Origin: Candidatus Bipolaricaulota bacterium
GTDB taxonomy: Bacteria; Bipolaricaulota; Bipolaricaulia; M55B111
Reading direction: 5' to 3'
DNA length: 40,093 bases
Assembly: GCA_018334915.1 (NCBI GenBank)
Contig: JAGXLB010000007.1
Location: 1-40,093 of the forward strand
Shown: positions 20,524-38,128 of the stretch, piece after piece
Numbering within the stretch: position 1 is the first letter of the stretch
Layout of the letters: each line of letters opens with the position of its first letter
Position numbers and translations under genes: made by a program
The notes under the pieces: generated by a model
Told to the model about the DNA's origin: nothing
Database searches by the model: none
What the model saw: only the letters and a program-made list of their open reading frames with translations

Positions 20524-21060
20524 ATGATACTGAACGACAAAGAGATAGCTGAGGTCGAGCCGGTTACTCCATTTGTCAGGGATCTACAGACTGACGATAA
20601 AATTAGCTACGGGCTGGGCTCTTTTGGTTACGATATCAGAATCGACGACGAATTCCGAATTTTTACCGATGTGCATTCCACCGAAATAAATCCAAAAGAA
20701 TTCAACGAAGACGCTTTCGTACAGGTACACGGCGAAAGTTGCCTGATCCCGCCAAATTCTTTCTGCCTTGGAAAATCTCTGGAGAAGTTTGACATGCCTG
20801 ATAACCTGTTCGGGCTCGTAGTCGGAAAAAGTACTTACGCGAGATGTGGCATAATCGTAAATATGACGCCGATAGAGCCCGGATGGAAAGGATATTTAAC
20901 CATTGAAATTTCTAACACAACTCCGCTTCCGGCTAGAGTTTACGCCGACGAAGGCATAGCTCAAGTAGTATTTTTCAGGGGCGAACGTCCAGAAATAACC
21001 TACGGTGATAGAAACGGAAAGTATCAGGACCAGGAAGGTATAGAGGTGGCAAAGATATGA
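20524..21060 (+). CDS. dcd: dCTP deaminase
   Basis: Deaminates dCTP to dUTP, a source of dUMP for thymidylate synthesis. The trimeric dUTPase-like fold is clear. The segment VGKSTYARCGIIVNMTPIEP (100-119) followed by GWKGYLTIEISN places Glu128 at the catalytic position, and the C-terminal GIAQVVFFRGE is typical. Length is 178. It overlaps thyX by 4 bp (ATGA), so the two are translated together and form a dCTP to dTMP module. Whether it also has dUTPase activity, as in some actinobacterial and archaeal members, cannot be told here. Confidence 0.94.
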   Translation: MILNDKEIAEVEPVTPFVRDLQTDDKISYGLGSFGYDIRIDDEFRIFTDVHSTEINPKEFNEDAFVQVHGESCLIPPNSFCLGKSLEKFDMPDNLFGLVVGKSTYARCGIIVNMTPIEPGWKGYLTIEISNTTPLPARVYADEGIAQVVFFRGERPEITYGDRNGKYQDQEGIEVAKI

Positions 21061-21656
21061 AAATCGAAATGATCCGCCACACCGAGCGTCCGGAATCTAT
21101 GATTGCCCAGGCAGCAAGAATCTCCCACCGGTCTCCCGGAGACGAAAAGGATTATTCGACCGAGGAAGACCGAGAGCTAATCAGAAAACTCCGGAATTGG
21201 GGGCACTGGTCACCGTTTGAGTTTGCTAGTGCCACGTTCTACGTGGAGGGGGTAAGTCGGAGCTGTCTCGCACAACTCACACGACACAGACTAGCTAGCT
21301 TTATGGTCCGATCAATGAGGTACGTAAAGCAAAACCAGGAAGAGGTAGTAATTCCTCAATCAGTCAAAGAGGCAGACCTGACCGAGGAATACAAAGAAGG
21401 GATAACGAAGAGTCACGACCTATACCAGAAGGCACTGGAAGCGGGAGTGCCGAAAGAAGATGCGAGGTTTCTCCTCCCGATCGGGAGCAAGACTTCCCTT
21501 TATCTCAAGACCAACTTCAGAGAATTCCGTCATATCATTGAACTGAGAGGAAGCAAGGAAGCACAGTGGGAAATCAGGAACCTGGCCGAAGAATTTCTTG
21601 CTCTGCTATCAGAGGTAGCACCTACGGTCTTCGAGGATTTAACGGAGGATCGATAA
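21057..21656 (+). CDS. thyX: FAD-dependent thymidylate synthase ThyX
   Basis: Flavoprotein methylating dUMP to dTMP with methylenetetrahydrofolate and NAD(P)H. The ThyX motif RHRx7S is present as R76-H-R78 to S86 (TRHRLASFMVRSMRY). NWGHWSPFEFASATF and LPIGSKTSLYLKTNFREF are further conserved segments. Its 199 residues are slightly short but complete. It starts inside the dcd stop codon. ThyX is common in anaerobes and thermophiles in place of ThyA. Confidence 0.95.
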   Translation: MKIEMIRHTERPESMIAQAARISHRSPGDEKDYSTEEDRELIRKLRNWGHWSPFEFASATFYVEGVSRSCLAQLTRHRLASFMVRSMRYVKQNQEEVVIPQSVKEADLTEEYKEGITKSHDLYQKALEAGVPKEDARFLLPIGSKTSLYLKTNFREFRHIIELRGSKEAQWEIRNLAEEFLALLSEVAPTVFEDLTEDR

Positions 21657-22012
21657 ACCAGTTATCCAGCAGGACAATACGGGGACCTGCTTCCCCACCG
21701 GCATTAACAACCCAACTAATCACGAGTTGCCAGGACATTTGTCGGGCTCAGTCGGGGCATCTCTCCAAGAATCAGCGTGTAAAGTTAGCTATAATGGTGT
21801 TCAGGAGGCCGCAGGTATCATTTGAATTCTAAGTTTTAAACTACACCATCGGGAAGATTTTTTGAACCTGAGATATTGCAGAAGTTCGTCAAATCCGTTA
21901 TAACGGGAACTGTAGAGTGTCATACTGAATGGCTTCATGAAAATATAATTAAAAGTGAGGTTCCAAAGATATACTTCGTACTCACGGAGAACTTTCAGCC
22001 GGGGAGGACTCG
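21657..22012. other. Intergenic region upstream of the HerA-like gene
   Basis: 356 bp without a supported gene. It holds a GC-rich stretch after thyX (GGGGACCTGCTTCCCC near 21690, a weak hairpin without a U-tract), a perfect TATAAT near 21790 lacking a good -35, and a better candidate promoter at 21876-21904. No known RNA or repeat was recognised. Confidence 0.45.
21876..21904 (+). promoter_or_regulatory. Candidate promoter of the HerA-like gene
   Basis: TTGCAG (21876-21881), 17-base spacer, TATAAC (21899-21904). It would give a leader of about 100 nt before the TTG start at 22013. A second TATAAT-containing tract lies near 21949. Confidence 0.38.
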
Positions 22013-23821
22013 TTGAAAGATCTGTACATCAGTGACGATTTAGATTTCAACCTGGACGAAATTATCGGTAAATGCATCGGGATACTGGGGATAAGAGGTT
22101 CGGGCAAATCCAATACCGCCGGAGTCATATTCGAAGAACTCCTAAAACATAGCTACCCTTTGACCGTCGTAGATATTGACGGAGAGTACTTCGGCCTCAA
22201 GGAAGAATACGAACTCCTCGTAATCGGAGAAGGAAAGAACGTCGATATAACGATAGAACCCGAAGATGCACCTCAGGTAGCGGAAATCAGCCTCAAGCAG
22301 AGCATACCCGTGATACTTGACCTCAGCGGTTACCTCAAGGAAGAGCAAAGAAAAATGCTCAAGCATTATTTTACCGCCCTCTGGAACTGGGCCGGTAAGC
22401 TCCGTAAACCCTACATGATAGGGATAGAGGAGTCTCACGAGTTCATACCCCAGGGGAAGAAAAGCGAGCTGAAGGAAATAATCACCCGGCTTTCCCTCAG
22501 GGGCAGAAAGAGAGGCCTGGGAGCGGTGATAATCTCCCAGAGAAGCGCAAAAGTCGAAAAAGACGTCCTTACCCAGGCGGGAATGCTTTTCCTCCACAGA
22601 GTAGTTCACGAGGCAGATATGAAGGTGTACAACGATCTTCTACCCTGGAAGAAGGGCGAGGTCAGAGAGAAAGTAAATCAACTCAATACGGGAGACTGCA
22701 TCTACCTGGACGAAAAAACGACGAAACAGATATACGTCCGGGAACGCTCGACTTTTCACGCCGGCTTCACCCCGTCCCTCGATAAAGTCGAAACTCCTCA
22801 GCTAAAACAGGTCGGAGAAAGCATAATCGAAGCTATAGAGGAAGCAAAAAAACAGGGAAAACGGGAGAAGAGCAGGGTCGACGAGCTGGAGGAGCAGGTA
22901 AAAGAACTCCAGGACGAGCTCTCCAAGAAAACCGATAAGGTAAAAGAGCTAAAACGAACTGCCGAGACGCTCGGATACATCGAGGTTGACCTCGACCCTC
23001 CCGACCTCCCAAAGGTTCATAAAGTTTCCAGGGCGGTAATAGAGTCTCTTGAGATCGCCGACGTGCTAAAAGAAGGGGAAGAAGGCGAGGCAATGAGGGC
23101 AGTAACCGAGACCCTGGCGGGATCCCAGGAAAAGAAGTCTCAGAAAAATGGGGACGGAAAAATCGACAGGGTCGAAAGAAATATGCCGGGTTTCGACGAC
23201 CGGGATGAGAACGAGACGGCCGGTAAAGCCAGAACTTTCGGACTCCCGTACGACGGAGAGAGCCCCAAGGAAGGAACTGCCGGTGAACCCGATAAAAAGG
23301 ATAAAAATGGAGAAGAACCGGGTTTTGAAGACCTGCCGTCAGCCATAAAGCAGGATACGAACTACGTCGTAAAGAAAACAAAACGACTGTCCAGGCTCGA
23401 CAGGAAGATACTGGGTTTTCTCGTGGCTCACCGACCCCACTCTTATAGCATTGAACAGATTAGTGCCTGGCTGAAGAAACCTACCGGTTTACTCCTTTCG
23501 AAAAGGCCGACTGAACTTCTTGACCTGGGACTTATCATCAGAGAAAATAAGTCAACCGGACTCCATTATCGGGCCAACCTGAAGGGATTCGTCGAGAAAG
23601 AGTTCTCTATCTACGAACCGGACCTGGGTTCGAGAGAGAAACATCTGGTTATATCGAAGCTGAAGAAAGAATTTACCCAGGAACTCACTCAGGGAAAACC
23701 GTCCAAAACCGGAAGTAAAAAGAAGGAAGAAGACAAAATAAAGCTAACCGACCAACTCGGCAACAAGTTCAAAGATAGAAATCTTTACGACAGGGACTTT
23801 TCATTTCAAAACGAAAAATAG
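22013..23821 (+). CDS. HerA-like (DUF87) ATPase with coiled coil and C-terminal winged helix
   Basis: P-loop ATPase of the HerA/FtsK group. Walker A is GIRGSGKS at 26-33, the Walker B strand with catalytic Glu is YMIGIEESHEF at 134-144, the sensor is VIISQRSAK at 172-180, and a likely arginine finger lies in SLRGRKRG. After the ATPase core (1-255) come a charged coiled coil (about 265-325), a low-complexity acidic linker (about 360-450), and a predicted winged-helix segment (about 455-525, LDRKILGFLVAHRPHSYSIE). The start is TTG with GGGGAGGA about 5 bases upstream. HerA normally partners the NurA nuclease in end resection; no NurA, methylase or nuclease is adjacent. The gene stands alone with about 350 and 200 bp flanks. 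It might be a DNA translocase of a mobile element or a solitary repair ATPase, and archaeal-type origin is possible but untested. Confidence 0.8.
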   Translation: MKDLYISDDLDFNLDEIIGKCIGILGIRGSGKSNTAGVIFEELLKHSYPLTVVDIDGEYFGLKEEYELLVIGEGKNVDITIEPEDAPQVAEISLKQSIPVILDLSGYLKEEQRKMLKHYFTALWNWAGKLRKPYMIGIEESHEFIPQGKKSELKEIITRLSLRGRKRGLGAVIISQRSAKVEKDVLTQAGMLFLHRVVHEADMKVYNDLLPWKKGEVREKVNQLNTGDCIYLDEKTTKQIYVRERSTFHAGFTPSLDKVETPQLKQVGESIIEAIEEAKKQGKREKSRVDELEEQVKELQDELSKKTDKVKELKRTAETLGYIEVDLDPPDLPKVHKVSRAVIESLEIADVLKEGEEGEAMRAVTETLAGSQEKKSQKNGDGKIDRVERNMPGFDDRDENETAGKARTFGLPYDGESPKEGTAGEPDKKDKNGEEPGFEDLPSAIKQDTNYVVKKTKRLSRLDRKILGFLVAHRPHSYSIEQISAWLKKPTGLLLSKRPTELLDLGLIIRENKSTGLHYRANLKGFVEKEFSIYEPDLGSREKHLVISKLKKEFTQELTQGKPSKTGSKKKEEDKIKLTDQLGNKFKDRNLYDRDFSFQNEK

Positions 23822-24018: not shown

Positions 24019-24336
24019 ATGAACAAAGGTGAATTGGTAGACAGTATCTACCGTAATTCGGACTGCACAAAGCAGGAATGTCGAGAGATGGTGAACCACA
24101 TGGTGGATGTCATTACTGACGAAGTGGCAAAAGGAGAGGAAGTCAGGCTGGTGAACTTCGGCACTTTCAAGCCCAACCCCCGGAAATCAACAGTCAAGCG
24201 CCATCCCCAGACTGGTGAAAAAATCAACGTAGACAGCAAGGTCACGCCTAAATTTTCGCCAGGTAAAGGCTTTACAGAGAAAGTTCAAAACAACCTGGAG
24301 GCGACCAACGACGGAGAAGGTTACAAGAAGAAGTAG
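24019..24336 (+). CDS. HU/IHF family DNA-binding protein
   Basis: Histone-like dimeric protein that bends and compacts DNA. The 105 residues carry the HU signature VRLVNFGTFKPNPRK, beta-arm residues with RHPQTGEKI, and the C-terminal FSPGKGFTEKVQ. A Lys-rich tail of about 12 residues extends beyond the usual 90-residue core. A very strong ribosome binding site (AAAGGAGG) lies 8-9 bases upstream, as expected for an abundant protein. pheS follows 68 bp downstream on the same strand and may be cotranscribed. HU and IHF cannot be told apart here. Confidence 0.94.
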   Translation: MNKGELVDSIYRNSDCTKQECREMVNHMVDVITDEVAKGEEVRLVNFGTFKPNPRKSTVKRHPQTGEKINVDSKVTPKFSPGKGFTEKVQNNLEATNDGEGYKKK

Positions 24337-24404: not shown

Positions 24405-25412
24405 ATGTCACAGCTTGATGAGCTTTTGGATAAAATACAGGAACTGAAACAGGAATCCAGAGCTAATCTGGAAAAAGTCGAGTCGCTTCAGGAGTGCGAG
24501 GACCTGCGGGTCAAATACCTGGGGAGAAACGGGGAAATTCAGGAACTCTTTGACGAACTGGGTAATCTTCCCGACGAAGACAGGGCCGAGGCCGGCAGAG
24601 GCATAAATAAACTAAAATCCAACCTTCAGGACGAGATCGAGGAGAAAAAGGAAAGGTTCGAGCAGCGGGAAAAGGAAAAAAAATTAAAGGAGGAAGGGGT
24701 TGACGTAACCCTGCCCGGGAGAAGACGAGGCGTCGGTAAAAAGCACGTAATAACGCAGGTAAACGACGAACTTACGACGATATTCAAGCGGATGGGTTTT
24801 TCACTGGCGCTGGGTCCCGAATTGGAGTCGGATTACTACAACTTCGAAGCCCTTAACATGCCCGAATTGCATCCCGCTCGAGACGAATGGGATTCTCTTT
24901 ACGTCGACGAAGAACATCTCCTCAGAACCCATACCTCTCCTGTTCAAATAAGAGAAATGGAAGCCCAGGATCCTCCGGTGAAGATAATCTGTCCCGGTAA
25001 ATGCTACCGCAGGGACACTCCTGACGCGACTCATTATCCTGTATTTTACCAGGTTGAACTCCTCTGGGTCGACGAGAACCTTACTTTTGCCAACCTGAAG
25101 TACGTAATCAGGTCTTTCGTGGAAGAGTTTTTCGGACCCGAGTTTTCTATGAGGTTCAGGGCTGATTACTTCCCCTTCACCGAACCAAGTGCCGAAGTGG
25201 ACGTAATGCGGCCCGACGGCGAGGATTGGCTGGAGATCATGGGTTCCGGCATGGTGGACCCTAACGTCCTTGAAGCCGTCAACTACGACCCGGAAACCTA
25301 TCAGGGCTTTGCCCTGGGATTGGGCGTAGAAAGGATGGCCATGTTAAAATACGGGATCGACGACATCCGTCTCTTTTACCGGAACGAGCTCCGGTTTTTA
25401 GATCAGTTTTAA
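24405..25412 (+). CDS. pheS: Phenylalanyl-tRNA synthetase alpha subunit
   Basis: Catalytic subunit of the alpha2beta2 class II synthetase. An N-terminal coiled coil (1-90) binds tRNA. The class II core has motif 2 PGKCYRRDTPDATHYPVFYQ (about 195-214) and motif 3 ALGLGVERMAMLKYGIDDIR near the C-terminus. The 335 residues are complete (canonical end NELRFLDQF). The beta-subunit gene pheT, which nearly always follows, is absent: after 421 bp a convergent glmS is found. pheT must therefore be elsewhere. GGAGAA about 8 bases upstream supports the ATG. Confidence 0.95.
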   Translation: MSQLDELLDKIQELKQESRANLEKVESLQECEDLRVKYLGRNGEIQELFDELGNLPDEDRAEAGRGINKLKSNLQDEIEEKKERFEQREKEKKLKEEGVDVTLPGRRRGVGKKHVITQVNDELTTIFKRMGFSLALGPELESDYYNFEALNMPELHPARDEWDSLYVDEEHLLRTHTSPVQIREMEAQDPPVKIICPGKCYRRDTPDATHYPVFYQVELLWVDENLTFANLKYVIRSFVEEFFGPEFSMRFRADYFPFTEPSAEVDVMRPDGEDWLEIMGSGMVDPNVLEAVNYDPETYQGFALGLGVERMAMLKYGIDDIRLFYRNELRFLDQF

Positions 25413-32214: not shown

Positions 32215-34326
32215 CTAGGATAGTTGAGTTGAAAGAATAATGGCCAGAACGATTGCTCCACCGGCAACCGCAATTCCAATTCCCGGATCCAGACCAAGTT
32301 CGCCTTCAGTATCACTTTCACCCTCCGGGGCAGGTTCGGTCCTATTGGCATCCGATTCTTGCACTGTCTCCTCGTGCCCAATCGTGAAGGACGGACCCTG
32401 GACGGTCCTTATGGTGTCCTTCCTGCCTTCGGTTTGATACAGAGTGGTCCGCAGGTTCACCGACTTTCTGCTGGAGTAAGATCTGGGCGTGAGGTAAATG
32501 AATAACGATTTCCAGTTACCCGCTTGACTGTCAGTAATGGTAGTCTTGCCATTTAGATTGTCCAGAGTTATCCCTGCACTGCTCAACCCTGACAGGTCGG
32601 TCCTTTCTGCAAGCTGATTCCCCCCCGCGTCGTATAGTTCCAGTTTGCTAAAATCACTGCTCGTGGCCTCTCCCATGTTCTTAATCACGATCGGATTGGT
32701 CAATAAATTCAGCTTGTTTTCGTCCTTATCCATTATATCCAGGCGCTGAGCAAGAATTGCATTCCCGCTGGGGATCGATGGAGATCCTCCATATTCCCGG
32801 TTCACTTCGACTTTCTCTGCCCCCCAGGGATACACAGTCAATTCCTCGGCGGGCTTGAGTTCAGGACTCAATACGTCACTGGATGCTCCCTCACTTCCCC
32901 TGAACTGAACCAGTGGGCTGAGGGTTACTCCTTCTTCCGCGTCATTCGATACCCAGTAGTGAATCTCGAAAACGCCTCTTCCGTCGTCGGGGATTCTCCC
33001 GCCTCGTTGGGAGTCTAACGGCTGCCAGCTCCCGGAAAGCCCTAAACCAGCTCCCAGTTCAACCAACCCTCCGTCAGATTGCACCCTGTACACAGAAACG
33101 TTCTCAACCTCACTGTTCCTCAGAGAACCCTGGTTTGCCAGTTTAATTGAGTCTACCATAAAATCATTCTTGTCCAGATCGTCGTCCGAAAGAGTTAACC
33201 TTTGCCTGTATTTTTCACCCTGATTGATTACCCCTGACTCCCAGTCCGTTATGTCCTCAATCTTTTCCAGCCCCAGTTCTACCAGAGTTTTCGCGCTGTC
33301 ATCCGGCATCACTGCTTCCTGGTTAAATGGATAACCAGCCATACCGTTATTCTCTTTCGTATCCAGAATTACTCCCGTCTTTAACTCCAAACCGGGAGTG
33401 GGTCCATTCGACTTTAACTCGCCGGCGATCTCCAACTCGAGCCGACAATCGTCCGAGCAACTGCCATTCCACCAACCATCCTGAGTAGTTGAAATGGAGA
33501 TCTCGGATGCAGGAGCAGCAATGGATTTTGTAATGGATTTTTCGCTTACCTCTCCTTCCTCCTCGATTCTTAATCTCAAATGGAGGTGAGAGATATCCTC
33601 GCCAAAAACCAGAGCGTTTTCGCTAACCGAGTGGTTTTTTACGATGATCTTATCCACTTTCACACCGGCCTCGTTCGCATCTACGTCACGGAAAACGTAT
33701 TTGCCAATCGTATCGGTGGTCCCCGGCTGAAGTATCTCCCCTTCAAGCGATAGGGAACTAAACTCTTCGAATCCTGCCCGGTCAATCCCGTCCGGAGCCG
33801 AATCGATAACCCAGTTCGAGCTTACCGAATCCACTGCTTCTCCGTCTCGTTCCTGATAGACGTAGTGGAGCATAGTTCCCAGTTTCAAGGATACACTGCT
33901 CCCGTACTTACTGACTGGAATCATTTCAGGTTCGGCTGCCGAGACCCGTAGTTGAAAGTGTCCGCTTTCTCCCGAGTGAAGAGTTAAGCCGTCTCCGGGC
34001 AAGGTAAAAGTTATACCGGAGTTAATTCCGGATAGGGTCTGTAAAGTCACCGTGTTCCAGTCACCGGATTCCTTCCGGTATCGAACCCGGAGGTTCACCA
34101 GTTCGCTCGCAGAAGCTGTACCGTAATTCTTAACTGTTAGTTCTTTGATTCTTACAGGCTCCGTAACCTCAGCGACCGAAACCTCCTGAACGAGTATTCC
34201 TTTATCCTTGGGATTTAACGTAACGGATCTTGGGGCTTCAAGAGCAAACTTGGGTGCCCCCATTACAAGGAAAGGCAGGAGGAGCACAAGTAGAAGTGAC
34301 ACTAAAATTGGGGTTCGCCATCGCAT
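32215..34326 (-). CDS. Exported protein with four repeated beta-modules and a C-terminal membrane anchor
   Basis: I do not recognise a named family. There is a signal peptide at 1-23 (hydrophobic LVSLLLVLLLPFLVMGA). The bulk is four related modules of about 110 residues (about 45-160, 205-325, 370-480, 522-640), probably Ig-like sandwiches. Each has a strand ending KN or AN (KELTVKNYGTAS, DKIIVKNHSVSE, DSIKLANQGSLR, PIVIKNMGEATS), a middle strand (GHFQLRVSA, DCRLELEIAG, GVFEIHYWVS, WKSLFIYLTP), and a last strand pair (SVSLKLGTML, GLELKTGVIL, GVTLSPLVQF, SVNLRTTLYQ). An acidic Pro/Glu linker (about 655-680) leads to a C-terminal hydrophobic helix (IGIAVAGGAIVLAIILSTQL) without basic residues after it. 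AAAGGAGG precedes the ATG. It follows the beta-helix gene beyond a terminator. Confidence 0.72.
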   Translation of the reverse strand: MRWRTPILVSLLLVLLLPFLVMGAPKFALEAPRSVTLNPKDKGILVQEVSVAEVTEPVRIKELTVKNYGTASASELVNLRVRYRKESGDWNTVTLQTLSGINSGITFTLPGDGLTLHSGESGHFQLRVSAAEPEMIPVSKYGSSVSLKLGTMLHYVYQERDGEAVDSVSSNWVIDSAPDGIDRAGFEEFSSLSLEGEILQPGTTDTIGKYVFRDVDANEAGVKVDKIIVKNHSVSENALVFGEDISHLHLRLRIEEEGEVSEKSITKSIAAPASEISISTTQDGWWNGSCSDDCRLELEIAGELKSNGPTPGLELKTGVILDTKENNGMAGYPFNQEAVMPDDSAKTLVELGLEKIEDITDWESGVINQGEKYRQRLTLSDDDLDKNDFMVDSIKLANQGSLRNSEVENVSVYRVQSDGGLVELGAGLGLSGSWQPLDSQRGGRIPDDGRGVFEIHYWVSNDAEEGVTLSPLVQFRGSEGASSDVLSPELKPAEELTVYPWGAEKVEVNREYGGSPSIPSGNAILAQRLDIMDKDENKLNLLTNPIVIKNMGEATSSDFSKLELYDAGGNQLAERTDLSGLSSAGITLDNLNGKTTITDSQAGNWKSLFIYLTPRSYSSRKSVNLRTTLYQTEGRKDTIRTVQGPSFTIGHEETVQESDANRTEPAPEGESDTEGELGLDPGIGIAVAGGAIVLAIILSTQLS

Positions 34327-34550: not shown

Positions 34551-37500
34551 CTACTTTCTGACGATGAACTTCATGACCGGACTTTCATATGTATCGTCCG
34601 TCTCTACGGTCACAGTGTAAATGTAGAGTCCATTTTGAAGGTTATTGAGATCGGTAAGGTTATCTACGGAGTCCAGCGTGACTAACTTACGACCGGAGAG
34701 ATCAAATACGTTTATTGTTATTGAACTTACCGCAGAAGTAACCGGGTCTCCTTCCGAATTCTTCAACACTACATGGGGAGTCTCAGTGCCGTCTATCGGT
34801 ACAGGCTTGATCCCCGACTTTGATGTCTCTCCATTCTGACCCCAATGAGGTTCAAGATTCTCACCTGGTCCCGGTACCTCTCCACCAACATTTATGGTAA
34901 TTGTTTCCGCAAGTGCCCCTTCGTCCACTTCCAAAGTTACACTATAAGTTCCGTTTTGAATAGGTACAAATGAGTGAGTATTGGTATAAGTCTCACCCGG
35001 ATCCAATTCAGGTACGTTTTCCTTGGAGGTTTCCATTACTATATTATCGTCCGGGTTCTTTACGATCATCTGGACACTTTGCCCACTTGTTTTGGTTTCA
35101 GAGACGTTCTCTAACGTGTATTCCAGTTCCACGGTCTGGTTGACCTGAGGATCCGTAGTAAGCGTCCTGAATTCACTTACCGAAAGGATCTCAATTACAA
35201 GAACCGGGCTATCCAGTAATCCGTCTATAAGTACGTGGTCAGGTGCTATCAGGTTGTACCTTATAGTTTGTTCAGTGGCTCCCGGACCCCAGTAGTTGTT
35301 GGTCGCGTCTACCTTGTAAAGGTTTCCCGTATCCTCGGTTTTAGTCTTAAGTTCCGAAGCGTCTATTGTCGTGCAGCAGTCCACTAGATTATTTTCGTTA
35401 ATATGGTTACTCGTATCTTTCGCCGTATCCGAATCCGAAATAGCTTTTTCTTCTAATACCTTAACAGCCGTGGAATAGCCGTTGAATTCGTTATGGTTGA
35501 TATCCGCATTCCAGGCATCCAACACGACAGCAGTTCCGAGTCCGATACAGGCTCCTTTAGCGCCAGTGCGGAATACGTTTTCCTGGACAGTTACGCTTGA
35601 ACTCGAGTTCTCCGCCTTGAGCCATAATCCAATCTCCGTTTCCTCTCCTACTACTATGTTCTCCTGGACTGTCACGGAATTCAATTGTCCAGCAACCAAT
35701 GCCATGTTAAGCTCTTCGTTTCCGTTGTATTCCTCTTCGTTGCCGGCGAAGAACGTGGTATTCTCTTTGACCGCAAAGTTACTTATCGTACCGGTCGGAT
35801 TGCTTGGATCGGGCGAAGTTACCACCAAACCTTCCTGGTTGCCGGAAAGCACGTTCCCTTTTATTCCACCGTTACTTTCAGTACCCAGCAGGCTGTTACC
35901 GAATTCGATAACCAGACCCGCGGAAGAAACGTTGTTACCGACAAACGAACTGTTCTCAACCCGGGGGTTCATTACATCTCCTGCAGCCACCAGGCTTGCC
36001 CCGTCTTCGTGGTTATAGTGGAACTCAGAGTCATTTATGACAACGTTATTGGAGGAATTAAGGAAGTCCTCAGCCGAGTTTATTTCCAGACCGAGACCCT
36101 TATTGTAACTGGCAGAGACGTCCTTAAACTTTATGGCTCCTGCAGAATCACTCGACCCAATATTGCTGTCAGCGTTATTGGTAATGAGCTTAACACCATT
36201 GTTCCCGTTCTTGTTGCCTTCTTTACCGAATTGTGCGCTGGTAACGGTTACTCCGCTTATATCTCCACTATCAGATTCTACTAACAGTCCATTATTTCCG
36301 TTGCCGTTCGCGGTTATCTCTCTAACCTGGTCGTCGTCGAGATCCTCAAGGGATACGTTTTTGACGCTCTCTTTTCCAAATATTTTGACACCGTTTTTGC
36401 CGTTGTCGTTGAATTTTGCTAACTTGGCAATATGAATGCCATCAACAGTGGCTCCTTTAATTCTTAAGCCATTGCCGTAACCAGGTTCTATATCGCCGGA
36501 ATCGTTATTTCCGGTATCGTTATTGCCCGCTTCCGTATTTTCGATTACTACGTCCTCTACCTCATCATAAGCGCCATCCTGATAAGCGGCCAATAAAGCT
36601 ATCCCGTCACTCAAATTCTGTTCCGCCAGGCCTTCTACAGTCATGTTCTCGAGGCCACCGTCGTGATCGTAAAATTCGGACCCTTTAATCTCGAGCCCTG
36701 TAATGCCCTCGTAAGATGCAACAGTTAATCCAAACCCTTGTTCGTTTCTGTCGTCACCTTTTATATCCTCGTTAAACTGACTATCGGATACTTCAACCCC
36801 TGGGGAAGAAGTTATGACCTTGGAAACGAAGAATCCCGCTCCACCACTCTTGTTGTCATAAATCTTTGCGTTGTCGATGGTTACCTTATCCAGTTTCGCG
36901 GGGCTATATTTGATTTCAGCCACAGCTGAACCGTCTGAGTCCGGGAATGGAGGCGTATCACTGTCTCCAAAAGCAACCTCACCTACCAGGATTCCAAACC
37001 CGCCGTCGACCGCACCTTCTACGCCGTCGCCCAGAGAATCTCCATTCTTGGATATCTCCGTATTTTTCACTGTTAGATCTATGGAAGATATCTCGTGGTT
37101 GGGGCTAGCGGACCAGTTTCCCAGTATATAGATTCCATTATCATCGTTACTTTTAATCTCAAAACCTTCTACCCAAAAACCACTTACCTTCGTGACTGTA
37201 GTTCCGTTTATCCTTATTCCGTCCTTGTTCTTTTCTATTCCATACTTGTAGGCCTGTTCCTTGTCTAAACCCGTGCTATTTTCTAACCTGATATTTTCTA
37301 CTTTCCCATGGTTGTTGAAGTGAAGGCCGTGCCCATCTGTGGAACCCAGTCCACAATTACCAATGTATAATTCATTAAAGTTTAGACCGCTGACATCTCC
37401 AACCGAACCCGCAAAGTTTATTCCGTCTAACCTTACACCATCAATCCTAACGTCGGTAAAATCTACTTCCGCGTAGTCCGTACTTCTGCCACCGTATTCC

Positions 37501-38108
37501 TCTATGTTGCCAGCAAAGCGAATCCCGTAGTCAAAGTTACCGTTGGCAGCACAGTTGGGAATCTGTAAATTCTCGAACGACATCCACCTTATGTCTTCAC
37601 AGGCACAGGGATTTTCTATATCGACCAAAATAGCATTATCTACGGTCTCATTGAGACTGCCGGTGGGCTCAAAATCCAGATCCTCAATATGCGCGCCCTC
37701 TTTCTGAATCAAAATACCGCTGGTAACTGTCTCAGGACCGGAACCGGTGTCTATCTCGTGGCCTCCCCCATAGGGACCTTCTTGAGCGATAACCACTACG
37801 CTGTCTGAGGCAGTTACGTCAGCAGAAGGCTTTAGAGTTATATTTCGGACGTCAATAATCAGAGCAGCATCCTGTGTTAGAGTAGCTTCATCAAGAGCTA
37901 TAGTATCCCCTGGCTCTACGTCCGGAACTCCATCACCCGTAAAATCAATGCTACTCAACTCGTTACCAACTAATACGTCAAAATCCCCTTGATTTTCGAT
38001 AATCCAGGTATCGCCGTCTTCCGTAACAGCCAATCCAGAAGCGGTCACGAGCAAAACTGATAAAAATACTGTCAGTATTAAGCCAACCTTGTACTTAGTC
38101 AATTTCAT
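34551..38108 (-). CDS. Secreted right-handed beta-helix protein with CARDB-like and type IX-like C-terminal domains
   Basis: Large surface or secreted protein. The signal peptide covers 1-27 (LILTVFLSVLLVTASGLA). From about 35 to 930 there are many Asn/Gly-rich turns of a parallel beta-helix (for example ENNTDTGNNDSGDIEPGYGN-like stretches, GNGNNGLLVESDSG), as in pectate-lyase-like and right-handed-helix repeat proteins. A CARDB-like Ig domain follows near 970-1070 (QTVELEYTLENVSETKTSGQ), then a C-terminal domain with NVFDLSGRKLVTL, NLQNGLYIYTV and the end KFIVRK, the pattern of type IX sorting domains. The start is the ATG at 38108, 7 bases after GGAGGT; the upstream TTG is less likely. It is 20 bp after the PorV-like gene, clearly cotranscribed. 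Catalytic residues of a lyase were not identified, so it may be adhesive or structural. Confidence 0.82.
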   Translation of the reverse strand: MKLTKYKVGLILTVFLSVLLVTASGLAVTEDGDTWIIENQGDFDVLVGNELSSIDFTGDGVPDVEPGDTIALDEATLTQDAALIIDVRNITLKPSADVTASDSVVVIAQEGPYGGGHEIDTGSGPETVTSGILIQKEGAHIEDLDFEPTGSLNETVDNAILVDIENPCACEDIRWMSFENLQIPNCAANGNFDYGIRFAGNIEEYGGRSTDYAEVDFTDVRIDGVRLDGINFAGSVGDVSGLNFNELYIGNCGLGSTDGHGLHFNNHGKVENIRLENSTGLDKEQAYKYGIEKNKDGIRINGTTVTKVSGFWVEGFEIKSNDDNGIYILGNWSASPNHEISSIDLTVKNTEISKNGDSLGDGVEGAVDGGFGILVGEVAFGDSDTPPFPDSDGSAVAEIKYSPAKLDKVTIDNAKIYDNKSGGAGFFVSKVITSSPGVEVSDSQFNEDIKGDDRNEQGFGLTVASYEGITGLEIKGSEFYDHDGGLENMTVEGLAEQNLSDGIALLAAYQDGAYDEVEDVVIENTEAGNNDTGNNDSGDIEPGYGNGLRIKGATVDGIHIAKLAKFNDNGKNGVKIFGKESVKNVSLEDLDDDQVREITANGNGNNGLLVESDSGDISGVTVTSAQFGKEGNKNGNNGVKLITNNADSNIGSSDSAGAIKFKDVSASYNKGLGLEINSAEDFLNSSNNVVINDSEFHYNHEDGASLVAAGDVMNPRVENSSFVGNNVSSAGLVIEFGNSLLGTESNGGIKGNVLSGNQEGLVVTSPDPSNPTGTISNFAVKENTTFFAGNEEEYNGNEELNMALVAGQLNSVTVQENIVVGEETEIGLWLKAENSSSSVTVQENVFRTGAKGACIGLGTAVVLDAWNADINHNEFNGYSTAVKVLEEKAISDSDTAKDTSNHINENNLVDCCTTIDASELKTKTEDTGNLYKVDATNNYWGPGATEQTIRYNLIAPDHVLIDGLLDSPVLVIEILSVSEFRTLTTDPQVNQTVELEYTLENVSETKTSGQSVQMIVKNPDDNIVMETSKENVPELDPGETYTNTHSFVPIQNGTYSVTLEVDEGALAETITINVGGEVPGPGENLEPHWGQNGETSKSGIKPVPIDGTETPHVVLKNSEGDPVTSAVSSITINVFDLSGRKLVTLDSVDNLTDLNNLQNGLYIYTVTVETDDTYESPVMKFIVRK

Positions 38109-38128
38109 CAATCATACCTCCTTATAAT

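Follow-up and report, generated by a model that had tools for sequence, protein, structure and literature searches.

The gene at 22013-23821 of the analysed window (the whole 40,093-nt stretch of contig JAGXLB010000007.1, assembly GCA_018334915.1, from a Candidatus Bipolaricaulota genome that is 84% complete) encodes a HerA that lacks the HAS barrel and carries a winged-helix tail. This protein, which we call HerA-wH, belongs to the FtsK-HerA superfamily; it is neither an ordinary HerA whose partner has moved elsewhere nor, by the marks that give a clear answer, an FtsK. We tentatively propose that HerA-wH is a chromosomal, NurA-independent translocase of double-stranded DNA in the slot held elsewhere by FtsK or HerA-NurA, with clearing or pairing of the terminus at division as its likeliest job, perhaps together with a short Xer-type recombinase (mini-Xer). 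The features of the gene and its surroundings are as follows.

20524-21060, + strand: dCTP deaminase-like gene (dcd), neighbour
21057-21656, + strand: thymidylate synthase gene thyX, neighbour; upstream in loci L034 and L036 too
22003-22007, + strand: Shine-Dalgarno-like GGAGG, 5 bases 5' of the TTG (sequence)
22013-23821, + strand: HerA-wH gene, 602 aa, TTG start (ORF list, Pfam, genome search)
22013-22777, + strand: HerA-type RecA-fold motor, residues 1-255, with no counterpart of the HAS barrel (model and structural alignment)
22088-22111, + strand: Walker A motif GIRGSGKS, residues 26-33, invariant in alignment A1 (sequence)
22412-22432, + strand: Walker B-type strand YMIGIEE, residues 134-140, with E139 and E140 invariant in alignments A1 and A2 (sequence)
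22535-22543, + strand: SQR motif, residues 175-177, after GRKRGLG, invariant in alignment A1 (sequence)
22796-22969, + strand: coiled-coil-like helices, residues 262-319 (AlphaFold2 model)
22976-23320, + strand: acidic, probably disordered linker, residues 322-436 (model, charge, comparison of relatives)
23321-23692, + strand: C-terminal winged-helix domain, residues 437-560, winged-helix core 459-523 (model, structure matches; a separate aligned segment in relatives)
24019-24336, + strand: gene for an HU-type DNA-binding protein, neighbour; next gene in 4/4 loci of the window's genus
24405-25412, + strand: phenylalanyl-tRNA synthetase alpha gene (pheS), neighbour; same position in 4/4 loci of the genus

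The initial annotation had described a solitary, NurA-free HerA-like ATPase with a TTG start and long flanks, and as far as sequence can tell these points hold. The same GGAGG stands ahead of the start codon in the three further members of the genus in which the gene was found. The gaps to thyX and to the HU gene measure 356 bp and 197 bp, and the sole other same-strand ORF of at least 60 aa across both (21566-21832, 88 aa) overlaps thyX. The product matches Pfam DUF87 above the cut-off (E 2.9e-12) and gives a single match in its own genome; NurA, searched for with PF09376, has no match in this 84% complete genome, and none of the 63 HerA-wH carriers has one. The GC content of the gene is 48% and its codon usage correlates with that of the 23 other window genes at r 0.705, which is low for its length, although the values of the genes directly beside it (0.58-0.77) extend to either side. 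Nothing in its composition is clearly foreign. A Pfam scan of 20 window ORFs, three of which had no match at all, found no defence effector, NurA or integrase. Two consecutive large ORFs on the - strand (32215-34326 and 34551-38111; 703 and 1186 aa) lack a Pfam match at 1e-5. The architecture of HerA-wH is not a chance arrangement, because it recurs in dozens of relatives.

We used an AlphaFold2 model (48 alignment rows, mean pLDDT 74) to assess the domain anatomy of HerA-wH. The motor is confidently modelled to about residue 250 and is followed by helices at 262-281 and 288-319, a low-confidence stretch at 322-434 and a C-terminal domain at 443-559. Together with the DUF87 match, the charge profile and the winged-helix matches, the model confirms the earlier description of coiled coil, acidic linker and winged helix. 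The best structural partners of the motor are HerA proteins, onto which it aligns from its residue 1: 8xaw (residues 119-544, Z 25.6 over 239 residues), 4d2i (118-473, Z 25.0 over 237), 9x1m (153-559, Z 25.0 over 241) and D. radiodurans HerA 7wrw (135-603, Z 23.2 over 246). The first 117-152 residues of these HerA proteins, the region of the HAS barrel, therefore have no counterpart in HerA-wH. A further 119-223 residues within the aligned ranges, where HerA has a helical insert, have none either. The protein begins at the motor, and its reading frame opens only 18 codons 5' of the start. Net charge is -11 in the linker (322-436) and +8 in residues 437-560. Relatives have linkers of 7-122 residues, acidic on balance in 39/42 rows, and a winged-helix domain with net positive charge is seen in just 32/44. 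Folded alone, the C-terminal domain reaches a pLDDT of 93.6 (44 rows) and matches winged-helix proteins, which bears out its earlier description as DNA-binding-like: the Foldseek list is largely of MarR/ArsR-type winged helices, at a best E of 4.2e-3 that is itself weak, and VIA-align gives Z scores up to 9.9 over 63 residues.

With canonical HerA of archaea and Deinococcus (4d2i, 7wrw, 9x1m) HerA-wH shares DUF87 and the RecA-fold motor (Z 23-25 over 237-246 residues), but it has neither HAS barrel nor NurA, adds the coiled-coil-like helices, the acidic linker and the winged helix, and scores far below the cut-offs of the NCBIfam equivalog models (62 versus 970 and 37.9 versus 800 bits). In D. 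radiodurans it is the HAS-barrel domains of HerA that NurA contacts (PMC9960219).

The relation to FtsK and SpoIIIE is one of a common ATPase superfamily (6t8o, Z 16.6). FtsK gamma is a winged helix, and HerA-wH too ends in one, although on a long linker, and FtsK gamma is not among the displayed structure matches of this domain. The FtsK_SpoIIIE family PF01580 is absent from the matches of HerA-wH up to E 1. Judged by frame length, HerA-wH also has no N-terminal membrane part, as is likewise the case for the FtsK relative SftA (PMC5357621).

Among other relatives, the antiphage HerA proteins act with SIR2 or DUF4297 effectors, whereas no effector lies beside HerA-wH, with its neighbours dcd, thyX, HU and pheS. 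The nearest relatives outside the phylum are haloarchaeal plasmid DUF87 proteins (for example on NZ_CP119795 and NZ_LN831305), with about 35-42% identity over the motor and no HAS barrel by length; one of them matches coiled-coil models and, at its C terminus and below the cut-off, DUF7343. They differ from HerA-wH in being archaeal and plasmid-borne and in having unlike neighbours. Several of these records begin near the gene, and we considered a plasmid replication or partition module; seven haloarchaeal plasmid neighbourhoods have no constant rep or par partner in common (Orc1 with PolB, ParA and MCM each turn up once), and this candidate was rejected. CedD and CedB of the Sulfolobales share the HerA-clade ATPase domain (NCBIfam CedD match at 2.7e-13, far below the cut-off) but are DNA-import ATPases with a transmembrane part and a VirB4-like N-terminal domain, and their distribution is complementary to that of a relative (PMC11868833). 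The packaging NTPase B204 of STIV and STIV2 shares the fold in minimal form (4kfs, Z 19.8); it differs in being viral, about 200 residues long and motor only. In phage record MW202482 (L118:11986-13854), a relative of HerA-wH stands downstream of a gene that bears the annotation 'chromosome segregation protein'.

We then assessed how HerA-wH is distributed across 100 Bipolaricaulota genomes of one class, and found it in 63. This count derives from 65 matches at E 1e-3 or better after removal of two matches of about 40 residues each (G043 at 1.2e-4, G072 at 5.9e-4); partial genes in three genomes (G027, G073, G087) are included. In the search for HerA-wH relatives, G013, G043 and G055 gave weak matches. 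HerA-wH is absent together with NurA from the whole of group g27 (6/6 genomes) and from G072. Two incomplete genomes (G004 and G005, 71-75% complete) and one whose contig begins inside the HPF gene (G015) may only appear to lack it, and gaps in other drafts may mislead in the same way.

The closest relatives in named genomes belong to Candidatus Bipolaricaulota or Acetothermia. In a 51-row tree of the motor all 36 Bipolaricaulota rows lie on one side (support 98/94), with the haloarchaeal proteins next to them and viral and mycobacterial ones farther away, so that the comparison with archaeal and phage DUF87 proteins called for by the initial annotation yields a single clade for the phylum. 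An earlier tree with canonical HerA and a Nitrosopumilus row contained long-branch joins; the 51-row tree omits these rows, five in number, along with 20 Bipolaricaulota rows, and the incomplete L063 and L089 are in neither. A few relatives labelled Neomarinimicrobiota, Atribacteria or Thermotoga fall among the Bipolaricaulota rows of the motor trees. Within the clade the window's genus, Bipolaricaulaceae-like rows and the remainder each group apart, the pattern that descent within the phylum would produce. Thus, HerA-wH is an inherited chromosomal gene in much of the phylum. Because its nearest outside relatives are on haloarchaeal plasmids, it may have an old mobile origin.

We compared gene neighbourhoods in 60 stretches, namely the window and 59 loci, of which two are haloarchaeal. 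The ORF was called in 49 stretches, 45 of them (one haloarchaeal) outside the window's genus. In these 45, with Pfam labels taken from representatives, a CCA-type tRNA nucleotidyltransferase gene directly precedes HerA-wH in 35 and HPF directly follows it in 29; an NFACT-R_2 domain protein is encoded two places downstream in 32, and rpoC stands four places downstream in 26. The window's genus has HU and pheS downstream in all four loci, and HPF is on another contig without HerA-wH. In three genomes of genus g25 (L167-L169) the cluster is intact and HerA-wH alone is missing; the matches of the genes that normally flank it are 55-62 bp apart. These genomes nest among HerA-wH carriers in a marker tree, at weak branch support (81/19), and the intact cluster and the nesting are most simply explained by a clean loss. 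The three loci amount to a natural knockout of HerA-wH.

NurA occurs in 15/100 genomes, all in families f3, f5, f6, f8 and f9, and never in the same genome as HerA-wH (NurA 15, HerA-wH 63, neither 22). In six of the NurA genomes (G013, G028, G031, G034, G043, G049) NurA has a match to canonical HerA no more than 2 kb away. Close homologues of HerA-wH are thus not found with nurA, which is what an ordinary HerA with a displaced partner would have entailed. The marker tree was built from HPF and the NFACT-R_2 neighbour in 64 loci, ten of 74 having been excluded for a missing marker; G010 was placed in the NurA group because it has a canonical HerA, although NurA was undetected there. On this tree NurA changes once and HerA-wH four times. 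The exclusion is therefore clean yet amounts to one historical swap, and an independent-pairs test (four pairs, about one informative; sign test p = 1) has no power. Fisher tests on the genome counts take no account of relatedness and carry no weight here.

FtsK_SpoIIIE has no convincing match in the 60 genomes searched: three have any match, and the only one above the cut-off scores 24.2 against 24 bits with a best stretch covering 29 positions. In 14 control genomes, the four without an FtsK match (Synechococcus, Thermotoga, Haloferax and Methanosarcina) all match NurA, and three of the ten with an FtsK match also match NurA. With no convincing FtsK, no NurA and a different HerA, the HerA-wH genomes look like a third state. 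The accessible text on the first closed genome of the phylum (PMC6092417) mentions neither FtsK, HerA nor a recombinase.

A search with XerD found that the families with HerA-wH hold a recombinase of about 205 aa whose match is confined to the later positions of the profile (about 102-284 of 290). The catalytic residues of tyrosine recombinases are R, K, HxxR, H and Y, and this set is present in all 12 mini-Xer proteins examined, two of them from g25. At 1e-10, 76 genomes match; we counted the 61 with at least 60% identity over residues 1-205 (E of 6.1e-72 or lower), the next match having 36% identity at 1e-27. On this count mini-Xer is in 61/100 genomes: 53/63 with HerA-wH, leaving ten carriers in which it was not detected, 8/37 without HerA-wH and 0/15 with NurA. 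In g27 both proteins are absent from all six genomes, and g25 keeps mini-Xer in 5/8. The five genomes of NurA families examined (L201-L205) have a different Xer-type protein of 300-345 aa, and the type of Xer appears to change along with the type of HerA. The window's own genome has 21 XerD-like matches in all; three of them cluster near a DUF87 match (G000:C151:8147-16434) in a region that resembles a mobile element.

Upstream of mini-Xer, all 25 loci examined, including three of three in g25, contain the palindrome N4-AACAAAAG-N4-CTTTTGTT-N4 or a close variant, which matches 14-16 of 16 core positions and is separated from the gene match by 58-251 bp. The outer bases of the palindrome covary on the two arms (ACTT/AAGT, TCGC/GCGA, ATTT/AAAT). 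The strict pattern occurs 23 times in the 3.25 Mb searched, always adjoining mini-Xer, with one place counted twice. This dif-like site was identified by the palindrome and not by likeness to the dif consensus, and the first 12 sites match the bacterial consensus at 19/28 positions (two f1 loci), 14-16 (f4, g25) or 11-12 (f2, f7), a likeness that is moderate in some groups and low in others. The coordinates in the window's own genome and in the complete genome G011 are as follows.

L277:3451-4071: mini-Xer gene of the window's own genome (mini-Xer search)
L277:4296-4323: its dif-like site (palindrome)
L191:4503-4530: dif-like site of G011 (palindrome)

In G011 the site is unique (next best 16/24) and lies 38 kb from the maximum of cumulative GC skew, which is weak yet larger than in any of 2000 block shuffles. 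In G008, of which 800 of 1,702 kb were sampled, the site is at 887.7 kb and the skew maximum is nearby at 935-955 kb. A scan of octamers seen at least 40 times on the G011 leading strand found no KOPS-like polar octamer (top polarity 0.746, against 0.755, 0.75 and 0.784 in three rotated controls; no positive control was included). The HerA-wH and mini-Xer genes are unlinked, at 632 and 895 kb in G011.

From the sequences, mini-Xer and its palindrome are possibly the chromosome-dimer resolution module of the phylum; the main alternative is that the palindrome is an operator through which the mini-Xer gene is controlled. As in XerS/difSL and XerH/difH, there would be a single recombinase with its site next to the gene, an arrangement that PMC5357621 presents as a possible hallmark of single-recombinase Xer systems, but mini-Xer consists of the catalytic domain only, whereas XerS has 356 and XerH 354-362 aa (same source). 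Archaeal XerA reportedly requires no accessory protein in vitro, and so mini-Xer may need none either.

In the mechanism that we tentatively favour, HerA-wH would, judging by its fold, assemble into a ring of six motors that encircles DNA; the winged helices on their tethers would load the ring onto DNA or a partner; and ATP hydrolysis would pull the duplex. So acting, HerA-wH may fill the chromosome-maintenance slot of FtsK or HerA-NurA and, as its likeliest job, would clear or bring together the terminus region at division. Perhaps it would pair two copies of the dif-like site, which the small recombinase would then recombine; a link between HerA-wH and mini-Xer is our hypothesis, drawn from their co-occurrence, which is frequent but incomplete, as eight genomes have mini-Xer without HerA-wH. 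The earlier suggestion of a single-protein translocase is supported as far as sequence goes, by the single copy and the lack of NurA and HAS barrel, with translocation itself a prediction.

Several observations argue for this reading over a role in repair or recombination, in which HerA-wH would feed DNA ends to another, unlinked nuclease and have no part in segregation, and which we consider rather unlikely. The mutual exclusion of HerA-wH and NurA across 100 genomes fits both, and canonical HerA close to NurA in six genomes fits the repair role; the exclusion is one evolutionary event, which counts against both. Loss of HerA-wH from g25 while mini-Xer and its site are kept fits the repair role and counts against segregation. 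Also against segregation are g27 and G072, which have neither HerA-wH nor NurA, and the ten carriers without detected mini-Xer. But a repair motor of this kind would be without the HAS barrel, the nuclease-binding part of HerA-NurA, and the commonest identified neighbours of HerA-wH are not nucleases. Segregation is favoured by the motor fold and the missing barrel, by the lack of a convincing FtsK match in 60 genomes, by the single clade of 36 of 51 rows, by the gene cluster with the CCA-type transferase, HPF and rpoC, by mini-Xer being in 53/63 HerA-wH but 0/15 NurA genomes, by the dif-like palindrome in 25/25 loci, which is unique in G011 and near the skew maximum in two genomes, and by the suggestion, made in PMC2958812 for archaea, of a functional analogy between HerA and FtsK. 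Against it stand the missing polar octamer in G011, the distance between the two genes, the lack of an FtsK-style membrane anchor (judged from the frame), the winged helices that are not net positive, and neighbours (CCA-type transferase, HPF, rpoC) that do not suggest DNA transport.

Those same neighbours could instead indicate a DNA motor with a part in transcription or the control of growth that acts with the products of the cluster, for example by moving or clearing DNA-bound complexes. We regard this as quite improbable: the frequent positions of the transferase, HPF and rpoC speak for it, but the window's genus has HerA-wH elsewhere, beside HU and pheS, with HPF on a separate contig, the cluster is intact without HerA-wH in three g25 genomes, and the neighbours may merely share a strong promoter. 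The initial annotation had also raised two further possibilities, an orphan ATPase of a defence system and a mobile-element relic, and these now appear very improbable. PADLOC HerA models do match (best 2.3e-21), the nearest outside relatives are on haloarchaeal plasmids, and more distant ones are in viral contigs and one phage record. Yet the gene is intact, with strongly conserved motor residues, forms one clade in the phylum and lies mostly in a housekeeping cluster; its codon usage lies inside the range spanned by its direct neighbours, the scanned window ORFs include no effector, NurA or integrase, and the antiphage HerA models score far below their cut-offs (38.4 versus 800 and 38.2 versus 850 bits).

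The clearing and resolution of chromosomes in bacteria that lack FtsK is an open question, for which a candidate motor, recombinase and site are found here in one phylum, with natural comparisons in relatives that lack the motor and in relatives that use HerA-NurA. The analysis also marks out a barrel-less branch of HerA with a winged-helix tail, on bacterial chromosomes and with haloarchaeal plasmid relatives, that databases label only as DUF87. In the accessible open-licence PMC literature we found no announcement of the HerA-wH protein or of a Bipolaricaulota Xer/dif system. A more specific proposal, which we judge unlikely but worth stating, is that much of Bipolaricaulota resolves and segregates its chromosomes free of FtsK, through a soluble HerA-type pump whose winged helix replaces FtsK gamma, a catalytic-domain-only mini-Xer and a fully palindromic dif just upstream of its gene, of independent origin and swapped once for HerA-NurA with a full-length Xer. 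If true, this would be an FtsK-free bacterial chromosome-dimer system of independent origin.
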